From IMG/VR virus record IMGVR_UViG_3300044655_000097, positions 1 to 26,140 of that record: a stretch of DNA of 26,140 nucleotides, one strand, 5' to 3'. Numbering within the stretch: position 1 is the stretch's first letter; each line of letters opens with the position of its first letter. This DNA is from a virus. Position numbers and translations under genes: made by a program. The notes beneath the pieces were generated by a model. The model did no database searches. It was not told the origin of the DNA and saw nothing but the letters and a program-made list of their open reading frames with translations. Shown in pieces: positions 3,573 to 19,820 of the stretch.

Positions 3573-3994
3573 TGGGAACCAGCAAGGGCAACGGCAAATA
3601 CATTGAAACCCCCGAAAAGATGTGGGAGCACTTTGAAGCATACCGATGGCAGGTCAAGAACAACCCAAGGCTCAAGACGGTATTCCCCGGCAAGGATGCT
3701 ATTCCCCAATACGAACCCTTGGAGCGTCCGTTGACCTTGGAAGGCTTTGAGAACTGGTGTGCGGATGCAGATATAATTGAGGACCTTGGGGCCTATTTTA
3801 CAAACAGGGACAAGCGATATGACGACTATGTAGCCATCTGCTCGCGTATAAGGCGAACCATCCGTCAAGACCAAATTGAGGGGGGCATGGTTGGTCAGTA
3901 CAACCCATCCATCACTCAACGCCTCAACAACCTCGTGGAGCGTCAGGAGAACACGGTCCACATCGAGCAGCCCCTATTCCCCGACAATGACTGA
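3572..3994 (+). CDS. Terminase small subunit (GP3 DNA-packaging family)
   Basis: The 140-residue protein matches the layout of the gp3-type packaging family: YIETPEKMWEHFEAYRW at the N-terminus, then PLERPLTLEGFENWC, then an acidic segment with DYVAICSRIRRTIRQDQIEGGMVGQYNPSITQRLNNLVE. In this family the small subunit binds viral DNA at the packaging start and delivers it to the large terminase. Its position two genes before the large terminase supports the call. It overlaps the methyltransferase gene by eight bases. Confidence 0.85.
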   Translation: MGTSKGNGKYIETPEKMWEHFEAYRWQVKNNPRLKTVFPGKDAIPQYEPLERPLTLEGFENWCADADIIEDLGAYFTNRDKRYDDYVAICSRIRRTIRQDQIEGGMVGQYNPSITQRLNNLVERQENTVHIEQPLFPDND

Positions 3995-5231
3995 TAAACT
4001 AACCCTGCATCATGGCGACTGCTTGGAGGTGCTTCGTTCACTACCTGACTGCTCCGTTGATTCGGTTGTAACCGACCCGCCTTACGGGTTGTCCTTCATG
4101 GGGAAGCGGTGGGACTATGATGTGCCAAGCGTTGAGGTCTGGGCCGAGTGCCTTCGTGTCTTGAAGCCGGGCGGTCATCTTCTTGCATTTGCAGGAACGA
4201 GGACGCAGCACCGAATGGCGGTAAGGATTGAGGACGCAGGCTTTGAGATTCGGGACATGATTGCTTGGGTGTACGGGTCGGGGTTCCCGAAGTCGTTGGA
4301 CGTGAGCAAGGCGATTGATAAGGCGGCGGGTGCCGAGCGTGAGGTGGTGGGCAATAACCCGACATTCAGAAAGATGCAAGAAAACGCATCTAATTACAAT
4401 TTGCAAAGAAACGAGTTCATCACCGCCCCCGCCACCCCCGAAGCAAAGCAATGGCAAGGCTGGGGGACTGCACTCAAACCCGCACTCGAACCGATTACAG
4501 TGGCTCGGAAGCCCTTGATTGGCACGGTAGCCGAGAACGTCCTGCAACACGGGACGGGTGCGATTAACGTGGATGGGGGCAGGGTAGGGACGGAGGATAA
4601 AATTGATTTTGAAAGAAAGGAAAACGGCATAACTCAATCAGGATGGAAGGATGTAAATAGAAATCCCTATGAACAGCACTCCGAAGGCCGCTGGCCCGCC
4701 AACTTCATCCACGATGGGAGCGAGGAGGTAATGGGGCTGTTTCCGCAGGCTGGCGGTGGATTCGGCAAGCGCGGCGGGAGGAATGGTGCAACCGTTGGCG
4801 ATTACGGCATGGGTGCGACGATGGAAACTGTTGGCTATGGCGACTCCGGCAGCGCCGCTCGCTTCTTCTACTGCGCCAAGGCAAGCAAAGCGGATAGGGA
4901 CGAAGGGTGTGAGAAATTGCAAGAGCGTTCTGCGGGAGAATGCGTGGATCGGGTTGAAGGAAGCGCAGGGATGGAAAGCCCAAGGGCAGGGGCAGGCAGG
5001 ACAAGCGGATCACGCAACCACCACCCAACCGTCAAGCCCACCGACCTCATGCGATACCTCTGCCGACTTGTAACCCCCCCAAACGGAATCGTCCTTGACC
5101 CGTTTATGGGGTCAGGCTCAACAGGCAAGGCAGCGATGCTGGAAGGCTTTGCGTTTGTCGGGATAGAACGGGAAGCAGAGTACATCGACATCGCCAAGGC
5201 TCGCATTCAATCCGCAGTCGGCTTGCTTTAA
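3987..5231 (+). CDS. DNA methyltransferase (N6-adenine or N4-cytosine, beta class)
   Basis: A 414-residue enzyme that transfers a methyl group from SAM to adenine N6 or cytosine N4. Catalytic motif IV, DPPY, is at 30-33 and comes first. A long middle part (about 140-340) with many Gly residues is the probable target-recognition region. HPTVKP and then DPFMGSGST at 371-379 (SAM-binding motif I) follow. This IV-to-I order defines the beta class. I chose the ATG at 3987 because the longer frame from 3876 runs through the small terminase gene. In phages such enzymes usually protect DNA against host restriction or mark it for packaging; placement between the two terminase genes is consistent with either. 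No partner restriction enzyme is evident next to it. The target sequence cannot be read from the protein. Confidence 0.9.
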   Translation: MTDKLTLHHGDCLEVLRSLPDCSVDSVVTDPPYGLSFMGKRWDYDVPSVEVWAECLRVLKPGGHLLAFAGTRTQHRMAVRIEDAGFEIRDMIAWVYGSGFPKSLDVSKAIDKAAGAEREVVGNNPTFRKMQENASNYNLQRNEFITAPATPEAKQWQGWGTALKPALEPITVARKPLIGTVAENVLQHGTGAINVDGGRVGTEDKIDFERKENGITQSGWKDVNRNPYEQHSEGRWPANFIHDGSEEVMGLFPQAGGGFGKRGGRNGATVGDYGMGATMETVGYGDSGSAARFFYCAKASKADRDEGCEKLQERSAGECVDRVEGSAGMESPRAGAGRTSGSRNHHPTVKPTDLMRYLCRLVTPPNGIVLDPFMGSGSTGKAAMLEGFAFVGIEREAEYIDIAKARIQSAVGLL

Positions 5232-6403
5232 TGTTTACCCTCACGACCGCTATCAGGCGAATCCGTCGGATGACGGCCCGGAAGAAGGTCATCCAAGGCG
5301 GAACAAGTGCAGGCAAGACCCTCGCCATCCTTGCGGTCCTAATCGACATCGCAGCCAAGAACAAGACCGAGATATCGGTCGTGTCCGAATCCATCCCGCA
5401 CCTACGGAGGGGAGCAATCAAAGACTTTGCCAAGGTCATGCAATGGACGGGCCGATGGGTCGCAGACCGATGGAACAAGACCCTGCTCACCTATCACTTC
5501 GCCAACGGTTCAATCATCGAGTTCTTTTCTGCTGATTCCGAGGCAAGGCTCCGAGGCGCAAGGAGGCAGGTCGTCTACATCAACGAGGCCAACAACATCG
5601 ACTTTGAATCCTACTACCAACTCGCCATCCGTACAAGCGAGGCCATCTACATCGACTTCAACCCGACGCATGAGTTTTGGGCGCACACGGAGGTCCTGCC
5701 CGAACAGGATGCAGAACTGATAATCCTTACCTACAACGACAACGAGGCCCTGCCTGATACCATCAAGAGGGACATCGAACTGAACCGCACCAAAGCCGAA
5801 ACGTCTGCATACTGGGCGAACTGGTGGAAGGTCTACGGCCTCGGTCAGGTCGGGACGCTTCAGGGTGCGATATACGAGGACTTCGAGGTCGTGGAGGGTA
5901 TCGATGTCAGCCGAGCCAAATTCGTCGCCTTAGGGCTTGACTGGGGTTTTAGCAACGACCCAACCGCACTCGTAGCAATATACCGCCAAGGGGACTGCCT
6001 GCTCATCCAAGAACTGCTCTACTCCACGGGCCTGACCAACCAAGACATCGCAGACAAACTGCGCTCGCTGGGCATTACCCGGGCTTGGGAGATCGTGGCG
6101 GATTCAGCCGAACCCAAGAGCATCGAGGAAATATACCGACTTGGCTTCAACATCAAGCCAGCGGAGAAAGGCCCCGATTCGGTCAGGAACGGGATAGACA
6201 TCCTGAAACGCTTTAAATTGCAGGTAACCAAGGACTCGACCAACCTCATCAAGGAATTGCGGTCCTACACTTGGGCCACCGACAAAGAGGGCAAGAACAC
6301 AGGGGTCCCGATTGACTCGTTCAACCACGCCTGCGATGCGATGCGGTATGTGGCACTCAACAAGTTAAGAGTAAGCAACTCAGGGAAGTATGTTGTCGTG
6401 TAA
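5231..6403 (+). CDS. Terminase large subunit
   Basis: A 390-residue packaging motor and nuclease. The ATPase part has Walker A GGTSAGKT (23-30) and a Walker B-like strand VVYINEA with Glu119. The C-terminal nuclease has the usual three acidic positions: LGLDWG with Asp237, VADSAEP with Asp291 and HACDAM with Asp369, as in PBSX/terminase_3-type proteins. It cuts concatemeric DNA and drives it into the prohead through the portal. The length is slightly short but complete, with no frame break. The start codon shares one base with the methyltransferase stop (TAATG). The portal gene, normally close by, lies about 14 kb downstream. Confidence 0.93.
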   Translation: MFTLTTAIRRIRRMTARKKVIQGGTSAGKTLAILAVLIDIAAKNKTEISVVSESIPHLRRGAIKDFAKVMQWTGRWVADRWNKTLLTYHFANGSIIEFFSADSEARLRGARRQVVYINEANNIDFESYYQLAIRTSEAIYIDFNPTHEFWAHTEVLPEQDAELIILTYNDNEALPDTIKRDIELNRTKAETSAYWANWWKVYGLGQVGTLQGAIYEDFEVVEGIDVSRAKFVALGLDWGFSNDPTALVAIYRQGDCLLIQELLYSTGLTNQDIADKLRSLGITRAWEIVADSAEPKSIEEIYRLGFNIKPAEKGPDSVRNGIDILKRFKLQVTKDSTNLIKELRSYTWATDKEGKNTGVPIDSFNHACDAMRYVALNKLRVSNSGKYVVV

Positions 6404-6408
6404 CTTTG
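6401..6408 (+). promoter_or_regulatory. Possible -7 promoter box before the sugar cassette
   Basis: TAACTTTG is an exact match to TAnnTTTG. It overlaps the terminase stop codon and ends four bases before the ATG at 6413. No TTG lies 17-23 bases upstream, so only half a promoter is seen. The short spacing to the start is like that of the other candidate promoters in this window. Confidence 0.4.
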
Positions 6409-6412
6409 GGGC

Positions 6413-6514
6413 ATGAACCCCGAACGCATCCTTGACCTGCTCATCGAAATCGGGAAGACGGTTGCAGCCGTTTTCTTCATCATCACCCTTCTAACCCTCC
6501 TTTGGACCTTATGA
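6413..6514 (+). CDS. 33-residue single-span membrane peptide
   Basis: MNPERILDLLIEIGK followed by TVAAVFFIITLLTLLWTL: a short amphipathic N-terminus and one membrane-spanning segment that runs to the end. It follows the large terminase by nine bases and overlaps the glycosyltransferase-like gene by ATGA, which supports translation. Size and shape fit a membrane anchor, a lysis accessory or a small holin-like peptide; no family could be named. Confidence 0.5.
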   Translation: MNPERILDLLIEIGKTVAAVFFIITLLTLLWTL

Positions 6515-7164
6515 AAGTCATCCACTACTACCACGTTTATTGCGGAGGGAACTGGCAGTTAATCCTTAACCAGCACATGATGGCGGTATGCAACTATGGC
6601 CTCATCAATGTCTTGGATGAGATAAGGGTCGGCATCGTCGGTCCACCCGAACAACGCAAAGCGGTCAAGGAGGTGCTGGAGAACTCGATGGTAGCCGATA
6701 AGGTCAAGGTCGTGGTAACCCGGACCAACGCTTGGGAGCAGGCGACCCTGACCGAGATGTACCGGGCCTCGCAGGAAGAGGAAGCCGTGTACCTGTACGC
6801 CCACACGAAGGGGGCAAGCGACCCATCGCTTATCAACCAGTTGTGGAATCGCAGCATGACTTTCTTCAACGTCGTGGCTTGGGAACGCTGCCTGCAACTG
6901 CTGGAAGGAGTGGATGCAGTCGGCTGCCATTGGATAACCAAGGAGCAGTTCCCTCACATGGCTGACCACAACAACCCCGACGGCTACCCCTATTTTGGTG
7001 GAACCTATTGGTGGGCCAAGTCATCCCACATCAAGGAACTGGGCGAACCTGTACGAGAACACCGCTGGCAAGCCGAACATTGGATTGGAAAGAAGCCCGA
7101 CACGAAGGTCCACGACTCCAACCCCGGATGGCCTTCACCCGAACGCTTTGTAATCACTTTTTAA
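6511..7164 (+). CDS. Glycosyltransferase-like protein
   Basis: A 217-residue protein starting MKVIHYYHVYCGGNW. It has a beta strand and loop YLYAHTKGAS (94-103), then NRSMTFFNVVAWERC, DAVGCHWI (135-142), the aromatic YFGGTYWWAK (161-170), and near the end RWQAEHWIG. This arrangement is seen in uncharacterised GT-A-like glycosyltransferases in phages and capsule clusters; no clear DxD metal site is visible, so catalytic activity is not certain. It is translationally coupled to the membrane peptide before it and to the DUF3431-like gene after it. It probably transfers or prepares a sugar for a virion or host surface glycan together with Glf downstream. Confidence 0.55.
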   Translation: MKVIHYYHVYCGGNWQLILNQHMMAVCNYGLINVLDEIRVGIVGPPEQRKAVKEVLENSMVADKVKVVVTRTNAWEQATLTEMYRASQEEEAVYLYAHTKGASDPSLINQLWNRSMTFFNVVAWERCLQLLEGVDAVGCHWITKEQFPHMADHNNPDGYPYFGGTYWWAKSSHIKELGEPVREHRWQAEHWIGKKPDTKVHDSNPGWPSPERFVITF

Positions 7165-7736
7165 TGCAGATAGTCGTTGCACGGTATAACGAGGACTTGA
7201 CTTGGCTCAATCCTTACAAGCAGCATTGCGTGATCTACAACAAAGGGGAAGCCATTGACCTCCCAAGCATTGCCTTGACCAACATCGGAAGGGAATCGCA
7301 TACCTACCTGCACCACATCATTGAGAACTACAATCGCCTTGACGATGTAACCCTTTTCACGCAGGGCAAGCCCTTTGACCATTGCCCAAAAATTACGGAC
7401 CACATTGACACCATGCTTGATGAAGGGATGGACATTCCCTTCTTAAACCTATCGCAATGGGTCCTACAAATTCACGGGTTAAACTGCAACGCTTGGCCTT
7501 ACCATTGTTGGCCGAACCTTTTGCCGGAAGTCGTTGAGTTTTTATTCGGGCAAACGATTGAGCGGCAGGTTTGGTTTGGAGCAGGGGCAATCTTTGCGGT
7601 TCGCAAGGAAGCCATCCAGCAACGGCCCTTGAAGTTCTATCAAAGAGCAATCACACTACTACCACCAATGGTTGACTGTCAAGGCTACGGCCATGCCTTT
7701 GAACGGCTATGGCCCACAATATTCAACGCACTATGA
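7164..7736 (+). CDS. DUF3431-like protein (probable sugar-related enzyme)
   Basis: The 190-residue protein begins MQIVVARYNEDLTWL and contains YNKG, then NIGRESHTYLHHIIENY (40-56) and LFTQGKPFDH (65-74), the characteristic string of DUF3431 proteins. These are small, possibly glycosyltransferase-like enzymes of unknown activity. A later WFGAGAIFAVRKEAI segment resembles the acceptor-side end of GT-A folds. The ATG at 7164 overlaps the previous stop by one base (TAATG); the longer reading from 7008 runs through the previous gene. Its setting between a glycosyltransferase-like gene, a methyltransferase and Glf points to glycan work. Confidence 0.65.
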   Translation: MQIVVARYNEDLTWLNPYKQHCVIYNKGEAIDLPSIALTNIGRESHTYLHHIIENYNRLDDVTLFTQGKPFDHCPKITDHIDTMLDEGMDIPFLNLSQWVLQIHGLNCNAWPYHCWPNLLPEVVEFLFGQTIERQVWFGAGAIFAVRKEAIQQRPLKFYQRAITLLPPMVDCQGYGHAFERLWPTIFNAL

Positions 7737-8395
7737 AAGACTTATTTTCACGACTATCCGAGTTAGATATTGACTCAATGTCAACCGAAGAACTGGAGCG
7801 TTTACTACCTGAATTTGGGATGAACAACGAGATTCTTCACGAAATGCCGAGCCACCTGTCCGACTACTTCGGGAAGGGCTTGCGGTTTTGGCAGTACCCC
7901 AACCAATTCGCAAAACTGCTCAAGCACATTCACGGCAAGCCCATCAACTCCTACCTTGAGATTGGATGCCGATGGGGTGGGACTTTCGTGATAATCAACG
8001 AAGTCCTCAAGAAAACTAACAAGCAACTAAAGTCCTTTGCGGTGGACCTTATTGAGCCATCCGAAATCCTGAACCAGTACAACGATTATTGGCCCTTTAC
8101 TTACATAGAGGGGAACTCGATGTTGTTCCAAACCATTAGCCCCAAACTACCGAGCCAAGTTGACTTCGTGTTTATTGATGGCGACCATTCCTACGAAGGG
8201 GTCAGGCGTGATTTTGAGAACTCGCTTACTTTAAACCCTGCCTACATCATGCTGCATGACATCAATAGCGTTGCCTGTCCGGGTGTTGTTCACTTTTGGA
8301 ACGAGATAAAGGGCAACTACAAGCACCGCGAATTTATTGAGGGGTACGCATCGGTCAGGGATAACTACTTGGGAATCGGCATCATTGAACTATGA
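7733..8395 (+). CDS. Class I SAM-dependent methyltransferase
   Basis: The 220-residue protein has SAM-binding motif I YLEIGCRWGGT (74-84), an acidic strand end in FAVDLIEP, and FIDGDHSYEGVRRDF (147-161), a set typical of Methyltransf_24/CmcI-type enzymes that methylate small molecules or sugars. LHDINS further on is also usual in that group. The likely substrate is a sugar hydroxyl or carboxyl given the neighbours, but this is inference. Overlaps of ATGA with both neighbours place it inside the sugar cassette. Protein methylation is an alternative. Confidence 0.75.
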   Translation: MKDLFSRLSELDIDSMSTEELERLLPEFGMNNEILHEMPSHLSDYFGKGLRFWQYPNQFAKLLKHIHGKPINSYLEIGCRWGGTFVIINEVLKKTNKQLKSFAVDLIEPSEILNQYNDYWPFTYIEGNSMLFQTISPKLPSQVDFVFIDGDHSYEGVRRDFENSLTLNPAYIMLHDINSVACPGVVHFWNEIKGNYKHREFIEGYASVRDNYLGIGIIEL

Positions 8396-9477
8396 GTTAC
8401 GACTTCGCCATTGTGGGTTCGGGTTTCTTCGGTGCGATTTGCGCCAAGCACTTGCACGACCAAGGCAAGAAGGTTGTGGTTATTGAGAAACGCAACCACA
8501 TTGGCGGTAACTGCTACACCGAGGTCAAGAGCGGTATAACGGTTCACACTTACGGACCGCACATCTTTCACACGAACAAGAAAGAGATTTGGGAATGGAT
8601 TAACCAATATGCAGAGTTCAAGCCTATCCGCTTGCAGGTCATGGCTACGGCCAAGGGAGGCATTTATTCCCTTCCTTTCTCGATGCACACCTTCAGTCAG
8701 GTCTATGGTGCTACAACACCCCAAGAGGCCATGCGTTGCATTGAACGGGATTCGGATTGCGCTGACGATGGCAGCCTTAAATCTGCTGCTATCAAGAAAG
8801 TCGGTAGAAAGGTTTACGAGTTGCTAATCAAGGGCTATACCGAAAAGCAATGGATGAAGCCTGCAACGGACCTCCCGGCAAGCATTGTAAATCGCTTGCC
8901 CGTTCGGATGACCTACGACAACAATTACTTCAACGACCAATTCCAAGGCATCCCGGTTGGTGGCTACACGCCAATCTTTGAGAAACTACTTGAGGGGGTT
9001 GACTTGCTGCTCAACACGGACTTCTTTACCGACCCATTGCCGGATGCCGAGAACCTAATCTACACGGGTCCGATTGACAAGTTCTTTGACTACCAGTTTG
9101 GTCCTTTGGAGTATAAAACAATTAGGCACGAACACGAATGGGTTTTTTCAAACAACGTGCAGGGATGCCCCGTGATGAACTACACGGATGCCGAGGTCCC
9201 ATACACCCGAAAGATTGAACACAAGCATTTTGCCCAAGAGGAAGGGTACGGCTCTTGGGTCAGCACCGAATACCCCCAAGAGTATATTCCCGACAAGACC
9301 GACCCCTACTACCCGGTCAACGACCAAGCGAACAATAAGGTATATCAGTCCTACAAAGAATTAGCCGATTCAACTCCGAATGTTTACTTTGGAGGAAGGC
9401 TCGGTCAGTACAAGTACTTTGATATGCACCAAGTCATCGAGGAAGCACTAACCTTCTGCAAAACCAAACTCCCATGA
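8392..9477 (+). CDS. glf: UDP-galactopyranose mutase
   Basis: A 361-residue flavoenzyme that converts UDP-galactopyranose to UDP-galactofuranose, close to the usual bacterial length of about 370. Family marks are intact: the FAD-binding GSGFFG (9-14), VVIEKRNHIGGNCYTE, TYGPHIFHTN, a central RMTYDNNYFNDQFQGIP segment, NYTDAEVPYTR, and the C-terminal GGRLGQYKYFDM that contacts FAD. Reduced FAD acts as the nucleophile in this family. In bacteria it supplies Galf for O-antigen, capsule or arabinogalactan. In a phage it probably feeds a virion or host-surface glycan made by the glycosyltransferases at 6511 and 18744. It overlaps the next gene by ATGA. Confidence 0.95.
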   Translation: MSYDFAIVGSGFFGAICAKHLHDQGKKVVVIEKRNHIGGNCYTEVKSGITVHTYGPHIFHTNKKEIWEWINQYAEFKPIRLQVMATAKGGIYSLPFSMHTFSQVYGATTPQEAMRCIERDSDCADDGSLKSAAIKKVGRKVYELLIKGYTEKQWMKPATDLPASIVNRLPVRMTYDNNYFNDQFQGIPVGGYTPIFEKLLEGVDLLLNTDFFTDPLPDAENLIYTGPIDKFFDYQFGPLEYKTIRHEHEWVFSNNVQGCPVMNYTDAEVPYTRKIEHKHFAQEEGYGSWVSTEYPQEYIPDKTDPYYPVNDQANNKVYQSYKELADSTPNVYFGGRLGQYKYFDMHQVIEEALTFCKTKLP

Positions 9478-10043
9478 AACTCCAAGACCTGACCATCGAC
9501 CAGTTCCAGCGCATCGGAGCCATTGAGTTCAGCAGCGTCCTTGGGGACTACGACAAGCGTGCAGGAGTCGTCGCAATCGTTGAGGGGGTCGATATATCAA
9601 TCGTTCGAGAAATGCCCGCCAAGAGCGTCCTAAAGCGTTACAAGGCTATTATCAGCGAGTGGAACGCATTGCCTGCATTGGGTTACAAGCGGAAGTTCAA
9701 AGCCGGGGGCAAGTGGTGGATCCCAACGGTGTTCACGGATGAACTTACGGCCGGGCAGTTGATAGAGTTAATGGACGCAAACACGACCGACGAGAAGCAG
9801 TTGTTGCAAAACCTCCACCGAATCATGGCGACCTTGTGCAGGGAGGGTGGTCTATTCGGATTCTTTCCGAAAAAGTACGACGGGGCTGCCCATGCGGAAA
9901 GAGCCGAACTCATGAAGAAACACGCCAAGGTGGGCGACGTTTGGGGGGTTGTCAGTTTTTTTTTGCTAAGTTCCGAATCCTTCTTGAAAGTTTTGAGCGA
10001 CTATTCCAAGCACCTGATGACGAAGGCCGAGGGGCTGACGTAA
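9474..10043 (+). CDS. Tail assembly chaperone, short form (G-like)
   Basis: A 189-residue helical protein whose middle part, FTDELTAGQLIELMDANTTDEKQLLQNLHRIMATLCREGG, resembles tail assembly chaperones with an LT.GQ..EL pattern. Such proteins bind the tape measure before tail tube assembly and are absent from the virion. Eighty percent of the way through, a run of nine T's (9956-9964) forms a T_TTT_TTT slippery sequence in this frame. A second open frame at -1 continues to 10219, matching the lambda G/GT arrangement. The name rests on this architecture and position upstream of the tape measure rather than a strong domain match. Confidence 0.6.
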   Translation: MKLQDLTIDQFQRIGAIEFSSVLGDYDKRAGVVAIVEGVDISIVREMPAKSVLKRYKAIISEWNALPALGYKRKFKAGGKWWIPTVFTDELTAGQLIELMDANTTDEKQLLQNLHRIMATLCREGGLFGFFPKKYDGAAHAERAELMKKHAKVGDVWGVVSFFLLSSESFLKVLSDYSKHLMTKAEGLT

Positions 10044-10219
10044 GCCCTCTCGCAGGGTACGGATGGCTGATGGTGGTGTGGAGGATGGCAAATAAGGACG
10101 TTCTCAAATTCGATGCCATCTTCGCTATGAAGGCGGTGGAGTTCCTGAACTATGCCCTGCTGATTCACGACATCTTGGAAGCAGAGAGGATGGAAGCGGA
10201 GCGGGCGAGGCGCAGATAG
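9474..10219 (+). CDS. Tail assembly chaperone, frameshifted long form (GT-like)
   Basis: Predicted product of -1 frameshifting at the T-run: join of 9474..9962 and 9962..10219, 163 plus 85 residues, 248 in all. The -1 frame extension has a normal protein composition: FERLFQAPDDEGRGADVSPL, then GWLMVVWRM, then VLKFDAIFAMKAVEFLNYA and a charged helical tail EAERMEAERARRR. It has no strong start of its own near the overlap; an ATG at about 10069 could allow separate translation, the main alternative. In lambda the T part links the chaperone to tail tube subunits. Confidence 0.5.
9956..9965 (+). promoter_or_regulatory. -1 ribosomal frameshift slippery site
   Basis: In the reading frame of the 9474 gene the bases read AGT TTT TTT TTG, so both T_TTT_TTT (9956-9962) and T_TTT_TTG (9959-9965) match the X_XXY_YYZ rule for tandem -1 slippage. 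The -1 frame is open from here to 10219. I did not find a convincing downstream hairpin by eye. Confidence 0.6.
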
Positions 10220-10246
10220 ACACATTCCAGCACGGGGGACATTTAC
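10217..10246 (+). promoter_or_regulatory. ACATTTAC-type promoter, site 1
   Basis: GACATTTAC at 10238-10246 lies directly before the gene at 10251. An ATTC at 10224-10227 sits 10 bases upstream of the box, as in sites 3 and 4. The -33 position (10217-10219) is TAG rather than TTG. The -7 box ends five bases before the start codon. Confidence 0.45.
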
Positions 10247-10250
10247 CCAC

Positions 10251-10898
10251 ATGGAAACAACCATCCTCGCCAATGGTAAGCCCGTAAACAAGTTCGGTAG
10301 CGGTTCGATGAAAGGCATTGACGAAACCGCTTTGGAGGGGATTGGTTCAGTTGTCGGCCCCAAAGGTGGAGGCAAGTCGCCAACCCACGACGTGCTGGTC
10401 AAGTGGATTGAACGGGTCATCGAACTTGCGAAGAAGAACCTCGAAGCAGCGAACGCAAATGCAGGGGGAACGCTCTCGGCATCCATCTCACCCGAAGACA
10501 TCGAACTATCCGCAAAGCAAATCGTGGTGGCTATCATGGCTAACCCCTACTGGAAGTATGTGGACCAAGGGGTGCGAGGTAAGTCCTCAAGCGTAAAGGC
10601 TCCGAGGTCGCCATTTCAATACAGGGACAAGTACCCACCTGCCCAAGCCATGGCCGATTGGATAGCCAACAAGGAAAAAGCAGTTGTGCCAACCTATTCC
10701 CGTGAACTCAAGCGGATGCGAACCAAGCAGGAGCAGGGATTGGTGGATGGCAGGTCGGTTGCCTATTGGGTATTCCAGCGAGGAACACGGGCCACAAACT
10801 TCATGTCTAACGCTCTATCCCCCGAAATGATAGACGTTTTGGTGAACACAATCGCTGAAACCCTTGGCAAATCCATAAGCGTAGCAACCAAACTATAA
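10251..10898 (+). CDS. Virion morphogenesis protein, possibly HK97 gp10-like
   Basis: The 215-residue protein contains YWKYVDQGVRGK (about 102-113), SPFQYRDKYPPAQAMADWI, and a C-terminal RSVAYWVFQRGTRATNFMSNALS followed by a helix. A VD.GV.G motif, an F/Y-rich centre and a G.....FM..AL end recall HK97 gp10-type tail completion proteins, which sit at the head-tail joint, but the match is loose. A candidate promoter ends just before the ATG, making this the first gene of a tail block. Gly-rich residues 34-42 look like a flexible N-terminus. Confidence 0.5.
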   Translation: METTILANGKPVNKFGSGSMKGIDETALEGIGSVVGPKGGGKSPTHDVLVKWIERVIELAKKNLEAANANAGGTLSASISPEDIELSAKQIVVAIMANPYWKYVDQGVRGKSSSVKAPRSPFQYRDKYPPAQAMADWIANKEKAVVPTYSRELKRMRTKQEQGLVDGRSVAYWVFQRGTRATNFMSNALSPEMIDVLVNTIAETLGKSISVATKL

Positions 10899-17118: not shown

Positions 17119-18069
17119 ATGGCATACAATTTTGGCAATCTAGCCTCCTACACCGACCAAGAGAGGCTTCCTCTCATCACCAAGGCCGTATTCTCGGCCA
17201 AGTCAGCATCTTTGTTCACCAAGCAAGTTGGTGTTAAGTTCGCTGCTGCGTTGAACCTCATGGACACCGATGCAGTTCTGCAAAGCGGTGACCTTTGCGG
17301 TTACACAAGTTCAGGCACAACCACATTCAGTCAGCGTGTCGTAACAGTTGGCCGTATGAAGGTCATGGAAACTTTGTGTCCTCGCTCCTTGGAGCAGTAC
17401 TGGATGCAGACCCAGTTGACTGCTGGCTCAATGTACGATGGCGTTCCTTTCGAGCAGGCTTTCGCTGAGCAAAAAGCCCTTCGCATTGCCGAGGCTTTGG
17501 AAACCGCTATTTGGCAGGGCAATACCTACTTCAGCGGTGTCAACCAGTTGTTGAACGCTGCTTCTGCTACCGTTGTTCTTGCAAACGCTTCCAGCACAAC
17601 TTGGAACCCAGTTTCTGCTTCCGTTGGAATTACCGCAACCAACATCATCGGAATCTTTGACAAGATTTACAACGACATCCCACAGGCCATCCTGACCAAG
17701 CAAGACCTCGTTATCTTCTGCGGATGGAACAACTACCGCACCTTGGTTCAAGCCTTCAAGCAAGGGAATGCCACGGGTGGTTTGGCTGTATTGTACAACC
17801 AAGTTGACCTCGCAAGCCTTGCCAATGGTGAGTTCATCTACCCCGGCACAAACGTCCGTGTAATTGCGGTCCCCGGCTTGACCAACACCAACCGCATCGT
17901 CTGCACATACCTCGGCAACCTCTTTTACGCGACCGATTTGCTGAGCGACGAAGAGCAGTTTTCCATCTTTTATGCACGCGAAAACGACGAAGTACGGAGT
18001 ATCGCAGCCTTCAAAGCAGGCGTGCAACTGGCGTATCCAGACTTGGTTGTAGACTTCAAGTTGGCCTAA
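17119..18069 (+). CDS. Major capsid protein
   Basis: The 316-residue protein begins AYNFGNLASYTDQERLPLITKAVFSAKSA and includes SLFTKQVGVKFAAALNLMDTDA, MKVMETLCPRSLEQYWMQ and EALETAIWQGN, a set typical of a Bacteroidota phage capsid type with the HK97 fold. Its later part reads IFCGWNNYRTLVQAFKQGN and FSIFYARENDEVRSIAAFKAGVQLAYPDLVV, characteristic of capsid C-terminal domains. It follows the protease and scaffold-like genes and is followed at once by a strong terminator, as expected for a highly expressed gene. Confidence 0.85.
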   Translation: MAYNFGNLASYTDQERLPLITKAVFSAKSASLFTKQVGVKFAAALNLMDTDAVLQSGDLCGYTSSGTTTFSQRVVTVGRMKVMETLCPRSLEQYWMQTQLTAGSMYDGVPFEQAFAEQKALRIAEALETAIWQGNTYFSGVNQLLNAASATVVLANASSTTWNPVSASVGITATNIIGIFDKIYNDIPQAILTKQDLVIFCGWNNYRTLVQAFKQGNATGGLAVLYNQVDLASLANGEFIYPGTNVRVIAVPGLTNTNRIVCTYLGNLFYATDLLSDEEQFSIFYARENDEVRSIAAFKAGVQLAYPDLVVDFKLA

Positions 18070-18743: not shown

Positions 18744-19820
18744 ATGAAGATTTGCATCGTTTACAACGCCCATCCAACCGGGTGCAGTTATTACCGCCTC
18801 GAAATGCCGAACGCTTACCTTGGCGACAATTACCCGGAGTTCGATTACGTCTGCGTTGAGAACATCACCACGATTAGCGACGAGGGGTTGAAGTCGATTG
18901 ACCTGTTCCTGTTCAGCCGGCTTTGGTGTCAGGGAAGCATGGAGCAAGTTGAAAATGTTTACAAAGCATTGACCCAATACGGAGCGAAAGTCATCCTTGA
19001 CTTGGACGACTACTGGGTGCTTGAATCGGGCCACATCATGTACCGCCACTATCACCAAACCAAACTCGCAGAGGTCATCCGCAAGCACATCAAATTGGCT
19101 GACTGGGTAACTTGTACCACCGAGCATCTTGCTGCTCGTATACGGCCTCTAAACGCCAATGTGAGCATCTTGCAGAACGAACCCTACGAAGCCTATCAGC
19201 AGTTCATCCCCAACCCCGACGAAGAACCCGACAAGCACCTCGTCAAGTTCGGTTGGTTCGGTGGGGCGCAGCACGGAGAGGACATGGAACTGCTCCGTGA
19301 GGGGATGCAAAAGTTACGCTGGGACGCAAACTTGGATGGCAAGTACCGCCTCTATCTCGGAGGGTGGAACGACAACAACCCCGTTTACGAGGGCTACGAG
19401 AAAATCATCAGCGACCAAGGGAACAATCCGAACTACGGACGCATTCAAGCAGCGGATATTTACTCCTACGTCGGGGGCTACAACTTCGTGAACGTTACCC
19501 TTGCACCTTTGCGAGATACCAAGTTCAACAAACTCAAGTCCGAGTTGAAGGTCGTAGAGGCAGGGTGGATGAACAAGGCCATCATCGCAAGCGAAACCAT
19601 CCCTTACACGGACGTAATCAAGCACGGGGAGAACGGGTTTCTCGTACCTTACAACAAGCCGAAAGATTGGTACAAGTACATCAAGCAGTTGATCCTTGAC
19701 CCCGACCTGCGTAAGGGCTTGGCTGACAACCTAACGAGGGACATCAAGAAGCGGTTCAACGTAGCCGAAACCGCCAAGAAGCGGGCCGAACTATACAGGC
19801 AGATTGGGCGCAAATTGTGA
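18744..19820 (+). CDS. GT4-type glycosyltransferase
   Basis: A 358-residue GT-B-fold enzyme. The N-terminal half has MKICIVYNAHPTGCSYYRLEMP and the strand VILDLDDYW (83-91). The C-terminal half has FGWFGGAQHGED, a YLGGW strand, LAPLRDTKFNKLKSELKVVEAGWM with the usual sugar-nucleotide-binding Glu, and IIASETIPY with HGENGFLVPY, characteristic of GT group 1/4. It transfers a sugar from a nucleotide donor; UDP-Galf from Glf would be a natural donor but this is inference. The ATG at 18744 is preferred over 18699, which lies in the hairpin. Its position amid virion genes suggests virion glycosylation. Confidence 0.85.
   Translation: MKICIVYNAHPTGCSYYRLEMPNAYLGDNYPEFDYVCVENITTISDEGLKSIDLFLFSRLWCQGSMEQVENVYKALTQYGAKVILDLDDYWVLESGHIMYRHYHQTKLAEVIRKHIKLADWVTCTTEHLAARIRPLNANVSILQNEPYEAYQQFIPNPDEEPDKHLVKFGWFGGAQHGEDMELLREGMQKLRWDANLDGKYRLYLGGWNDNNPVYEGYEKIISDQGNNPNYGRIQAADIYSYVGGYNFVNVTLAPLRDTKFNKLKSELKVVEAGWMNKAIIASETIPYTDVIKHGENGFLVPYNKPKDWYKYIKQLILDPDLRKGLADNLTRDIKKRFNVAETAKKRAELYRQIGRKL

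Follow-up and report, generated by a model that had tools for sequence, protein, structure and literature searches.

Exchangeable sugar modules in the late operon of a small-phage lineage: a possible combinatorial virion-glycan locus

We analysed a 26,140-base IMG/VR virus record (IMGVR_UViG_3300044655_000097; hereafter the window, to the whole of which all coordinates refer) in which a cassette of sugar-modification genes, including one for a uridine diphosphate (UDP)-galactopyranose mutase (Glf), lies between the terminase gene and g9474, a late-operon gene of no assigned role. We judge the chances somewhat better than even that this slot is a cassette-switched glycan locus, with a constant core, a variable and often methylated cap, and the virion as the likely target. 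A wider reading is offered more tentatively, at a little under even: a probably strictly lytic lineage of small phages would carry a combinatorial virion-glycan locus with swappable terminal-sugar modules, an equivalent in phages of the capsid-glycan signature of chloroviruses, in which one branch of the DUF3431 proteins would be a new galactofuranosyltransferase family.

A sugar module is exchanged between constant genes

Relatives were collected by a Glf-based search, which returned 44 loci, and by a terminase-based search blind to the module, which gave 80 relatives with 84-99% identity. Among the terminase-sampled relatives, the terminase, a membrane peptide, a putative glycosyltransferase (GT1) and g9474 were retained, and DUF3431, methyltransferase and Glf were replaced. 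Sorting of open reading frames (ORFs) distinguished at least eight module combinations, of which Glf-DUF3431-(methyltransferase) is one. Most module types held one S-adenosylmethionine (SAM) methyltransferase, recognised by Pfam, together with one or two proteins that could not be assigned to a family with confidence. Where the module was visible in terminase-sampled loci (n = 61), we found a methyltransferase in 52, a putative glycosyltransferase in 58 and Glf in none, all of these counts being lower bounds because some loci are cut by contig ends. Empty slots were not seen in any locus spanning it.

Alignment of the window with relatives carrying other modules showed about 90% nucleotide identity up to 7163-7166, at the GT1 stop codon (up to 7143 in one relative). 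Nothing aligned beyond this point until identity resumed, in most relatives compared, at 9465-9474, where g9474 starts. The exchange borders coincide with gene boundaries, the stop codon of GT1 on the left and the start codon of g9474 on the right, and enclose an exchangeable module (7165-9473, plus strand) that is replaced as a block in most relatives. Third-position guanine plus cytosine content was 0.58-0.62 in the module genes compared with 0.70-0.72 in GT1, the terminase, g9474 and a further glycosyltransferase gene (GT4, described below); the capsid gene also stood at 0.61. In seven samples, different modules were present within the same metagenome.

The order GT1-DUF3431-Glf was found behind the terminase in 21 lineage loci (L002-L009, L011-L022 and L045), several of them without the methyltransferase, which was missing in L006, L007, L017-L019, L021 and L022. 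The same three genes occurred in a different phage at L010. A first-pass annotation of the window had treated the gene set as a fixed unit, and this view had to be given up, since several relatives lack the methyltransferase and most carry another module altogether. It had also counted absence from close relatives, together with proven inactivity, as a refutation. Glf is indeed absent from the 61 terminase-sampled loci with a visible module, but the genes there are replaced by analogous sugar modules and not simply lost.

The cassette lies in a late operon under purifying selection

The cassette comprises five intact plus-strand ORFs. On its left lies the terminase large subunit gene (5231-6403, plus strand; Pfam Terminase_3C, 1.1e-17), the constant left flank of the slot, and on its right g9474 (9474-10043, plus strand), the constant right flank, with 95-98% identity in close relatives. 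The ORFs encode the membrane peptide (33 residues, 6413-6514), GT1 (6511-7164), a DUF3431 protein that opens the variable module (7164-7736), a SAM-dependent methyltransferase that is optional within it (7733-8395), and Glf, which closes it (8392-9477). From the membrane peptide through g9474, every stop codon overlaps the following start codon, and the cassette is placed in a tightly overlapping late operon with the terminase on one side and morphogenesis genes on the other. Neither promoter-like sites nor coding-strand terminator-like sites were found from 5100 to 10300, consistent with a single late transcription unit.

The median ratio of nonsynonymous to synonymous substitution rates was 0.094 for GT1 (90 pairs), 0.13 for Glf and 0.14 for DUF3431 (4 pairs only). 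It was 0.13 for the methyltransferase in the single usable pair, 0.061 for g9474 and, as a median, 0.70 for the membrane peptide, which is semi-constant and weakly constrained. The intact overlapping ORFs, the family matches and the purifying selection together argue that the arrangement is not due to chance. The five coupled genes proposed in the first-pass annotation were confirmed, with Pfam support for DUF3431, the methyltransferase and Glf and a structural model for GT1.

Small optional ORFs of 44-80 residues and several types were seen beside the membrane peptide, between terminase and GT1, in relatives such as L078, L100 and L004. A DNA N6/N4 methyltransferase gene between the terminase subunits (3990-5231) was present or absent among relatives, forming a second variable slot.

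Predicted functions of the encoded proteins

Glf matched PF03275 (1.2e-71), NAD_binding_8 (6e-21) and phrog_9677 (6.5e-127). Its residues 3-356 aligned end to end with the Escherichia coli mutase structure 1i8t (7.9e-119), including the flavin adenine dinucleotide-binding domain, and the Campylobacter jejuni structure 4mo2 was likewise aligned over its full length. In the alignment to 1i8t, E. coli W156, R170, Y181, R278, Y311, Y346 and D348, the catalytic residues, were all retained; the equivalent of R247 was K. Position 59 was His, in the motif HIFHT as in E. coli, compared with HIFRT in 4mo2, a difference that separates Galp (His59) from GalNAcp (Arg59) mutases. The enzyme encoded here is very probably active, and production of UDP-galactofuranose (UDP-Galf) by the phage's own Glf, as first suggested from the intact gene, is plausible. 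The Glf family was already present in 88 phage records, with up to 51% identity to the window Glf, and phage-borne Glf by itself is already known.

The DUF3431 protein matched its profile (PF11913, 2.5e-18) with 67 bits against a curated cut-off of 25; a profile search against PDB sequences gave nothing credible, and no match was found in 50,697 phage records. Within the lineage, DUF3431 and Glf occurred together in 21 loci, DUF3431 alone in one truncated locus, Glf alone in none, and neither in 61. DUF3431 adjoined Glf, in several gene orders, in almost every viral locus with both ends present. Outside the lineage the two were neighbours in L248, L250-L254, L256-L258 and L262 and in the Patescibacteria contigs L236 and L237; in L248 their order was reversed and Glf was only 40% identical. 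Because the same DUF3431 subfamily adjoins Glf in unrelated phages too, the DUF3431 protein of this branch is likely to be a galactofuranosyltransferase.

Several of these loci had features of their own. In L251 (7248-8690) and L256 (7245-8684), a protein of about 480 residues, apparently a fusion of a glycosyltransferase-like domain and DUF3431, immediately preceded Glf; both loci were cyanophage-like, with photosynthesis-type and ferredoxin-like genes nearby. In L236 and L237, the Glf gene beside DUF3431 contained in-frame TGA codons (2 and 6), which suggests that TGA is recoded there.

The methyltransferase (Methyltransf_24, 2.7e-9; RMNT_CmcI, 0.0022) is likely to be a sugar O-methyltransferase. 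A homologue with 52% identity lay directly 5' of Glf in phage record G009, an adjacency consistent with a methyl group being placed on Galf or on its acceptor.

GT1 had no Pfam match, and its profile search against PDB sequences gave nothing credible. Its AlphaFold model (mean predicted local distance difference test score, pLDDT, 77.6; predicted template modelling, TM, score 0.80) resembled GT-A nucleotide-sugar enzymes in a Foldseek search of the PDB, including GtrB and GlfT2, with best TM scores of about 0.5-0.56. Viral proteins were closer (TM 0.70-0.80), some of them annotated as glycosyltransferases (Klosneuvirus, Harvfovirus). One of these neighbours, M1IF74 (TM 0.75), is an unnamed viral protein of 638 residues, equal in length to the chlorovirus PBCV-1 protein A064R, of which it may be an orthologue. 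From the predicted fold we regard GT1 as a putative GT-A-like glycosyltransferase. Only five distant matches to it were found in the 50,697 phage records. The GT1 of L005 appeared to be a mosaic of two types.

GT4 (18744-19820, plus strand) lies between the capsid and portal genes and matched Glycos_transf_1 (5.2e-8) and phrog_7162 (9.4e-48), in agreement with the first-pass description of a GT4-type enzyme embedded among the virion genes. It was present in every lineage record spanning its site and had the same neighbours in 80 loci; wherever both neighbours were visible, it lay between the same two genes. In the unrelated phage record G004, GT4, GT1, DUF3431 and Glf were contiguous (46, 42, 57 and 70% identical to those of the window, respectively), and because of this adjacency GT4 is, on gene context, part of the same system as the cassette. 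By hydropathy, GT1 and GT4 had no transmembrane segment. The membrane peptide had a single hydrophobic segment (KD19 2.19) and recurred in most relatives.

Proposed glycan locus and the target of its sugars

In the scheme that we infer, which covers enzyme activities, sugar order, virion target and selection for glycan diversity, the constant and soluble GT1 and GT4 would build a common sugar core, to which the exchangeable module would add a terminal sugar, usually with an O-methyl group. In the window's version, Glf would convert host UDP-galactopyranose to UDP-Galf, the DUF3431 protein would transfer Galf, and the methyltransferase would probably cap it. The enzymes would be made late, together with the particle proteins, and their most likely substrate would be the virion, either its capsid or its tail. 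Phages would swap modules by recombining within the conserved flanks, and a population would in this way keep several glycan types in circulation.

Several observations weigh against this scheme. GT1 has no obvious DXD motif. The AlphaFold model of DUF3431 was poor (pLDDT 48.8), and since its fold could not be judged it was left unused. Glf was found in just 5 of 11 cellular genomes bearing DUF3431, and we therefore rejected a family-wide Galf specificity for the cellular members. Five alternative module genes were only weakly glycosyltransferase-like (sub-threshold best Pfam hits to glycosyltransferase families, with E of 0.0035-0.1, for three and no match for two), and the putative glycosyltransferases of one module had no detectable sequence similarity to those of another. 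G004 has its cassette away from the virion genes. A test for association between capsid allele and module type found none. The major capsid protein (17119-18069, plus strand), assigned by position and a weak family match, is a candidate glycan acceptor in which two patches, near residues 140-180 and 200-240, vary strongly, and its gene neighbours (scaffold, protease, portal and GT4) are mostly more than 95% conserved; with capsid and module types unlinked, the patches are only suggestive as a hint of the acceptor.

The sugars could instead be destined for the host. In that case the enzymes would alter lipopolysaccharide or capsule during infection, blocking adsorption of competitors or of released progeny, and competing phages would drive the diversity of modules. 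Host-surface change is what the authors concerned inferred for the glycosyltransferase-rich hypervariable islands of pelagimyophages (PMC7029224) and for 'Gratiaviridae' (PMC8008677). Surface polysaccharides are what Glf normally supplies, the membrane peptide could anchor the enzymes to the membrane, and the position of the G004 cassette would suit this role. This is the main rival reading, but we consider it the less likely one. The cassette occupies a late-operon position, its enzymes are all soluble by hydropathy, and the sole hydrophobic product is the 33-residue peptide. In eight lineage records, in which control searches worked, there was no homologue of integrase or resolvase (PF00589, PF00239) and no match to polysaccharide flippase (PF01943; the gtrA family was not searched), and the scanned gene set contained no polymerase or lipid-carrier transferase. 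Without an integrase there would be no lysogen to protect, and the late position together with the lack of a membrane glycosyltransferase, flippase and integrase favours the virion over lysogenic conversion of the host surface. A serotype-conversion cassette like the gtr genes of temperate phages, which also have an exchangeable specific glycosyltransferase behind constant genes, is the least probable of the readings considered: those of its defining parts that were looked for are missing here, with no multi-pass membrane glycosyltransferase, flippase match or integrase, and the locus is sited in a late operon and not beside an attachment site.

Phage glycosyltransferases can also modify DNA, and sugars placed on the phage genome could counter restriction enzymes; in Lactobacillus phage ATCCB (L283, 3028-6083), Glf follows consecutive genes for a thymidylate synthase and a protein annotated as a beta-glucosyltransferase. 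This arrangement may point to DNA glycosylation with Galf in that phage. For the window's lineage a DNA target is very improbable. A thymidylate-synthase-type enzyme had no homologue in any of the eight records, which, with the late-operon position and soluble enzymes, weighs against DNA glycosylation; only ordinary DNA methylases (N6/N4 and C5) were seen, and swappable, optional O-methyltransferases are not expected for base modification. We give equally little credence to a neutral hotspot at which functionless sugar genes are gained and lost between terminase and g9474. Variable modules and small optional ORFs beside the slot are what it would produce, but GT1, Glf and DUF3431 are under purifying selection, GT1 and GT4 are constant, and spanning loci always have the slot filled, mostly with a glycosyltransferase-like gene and a methyltransferase. 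The virion is thus the most likely target of the sugars.

Host, genome and implications

The closest terminases from isolates were those of Flavobacterium psychrophilum phages, at 50% identity. A Bacteroidota host, as in the first-pass annotation, is plausible. A genome size near 33 kb is probable, because a 44.4 kb relative (G001, L055-L057) wraps onto itself with that period (33.3 kb). The repeats in G001 are 90-96% identical, short of full identity, and the assembler has probably merged two strains in this record.

If the proposed scheme is correct, the locus would offer a small and testable example of how phages vary their particle sugars through the exchange of cassettes, much as bacteria vary their surface antigens, and it would raise the question of which environmental pressure selects for glycan diversity, be it host defences, adsorption or competitors. 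One branch of DUF3431 would also gain a likely activity, and the locus would suggest that many unannotated phage proteins of 200 residues beside methyltransferases are glycosyltransferases.

Comparison with known systems

The capsid N-glycan system of chlorovirus PBCV-1 (A064R, A061L, A111/114R) has a conserved core whose periphery is variable, methylated and in part furanose and serves as a virus-specific signature, with variants forming antigenic classes; A064R, which combines a methyltransferase domain with two glycosyltransferase domains, builds the methylated end (PMC9614988). Like the window phage, the chlorovirus encodes glycosyltransferases and sugar O-methyltransferases. However, it is a eukaryotic giant virus whose enzymes are fused in one protein and scattered over the genome with no swappable cassette, and the description consulted notes no Glf.

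Mycobacteriophages Che8, Corndog and Myrna are tailed phages reported to glycosylate capsid and tail tube with their own glycosyltransferases (PMC12363180, PMC12619734). Their virion glycan has been demonstrated, in other hosts, whereas that of the window phage is predicted; the portions of these reports available to us mention neither Glf nor cassette exchange, unlike the window lineage. The pelagimyophage island resembles the slot in having variable glycosyltransferase genes within the structural region, but it averages 44.6 kb and holds tail fibres and many other genes of T4-like phages, compared with a slot of 2-3 kb, a single module and gene-boundary exchange here (PMC7029224). The Glf proteins of Rhizobium, Agrobacterium, Aeromonas, Streptococcus and Lactobacillus phages (phrog_9677) belong to the same family as the window Glf, but they lack the GT1 or DUF3431 partner. 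We found no description of such a slot in the literature searched, which does not prove novelty. What differs from these systems is a short, single-module slot in a late operon with constant glycosyltransferases, exchange at gene boundaries and a recurrent pairing with sugar methyltransferases.

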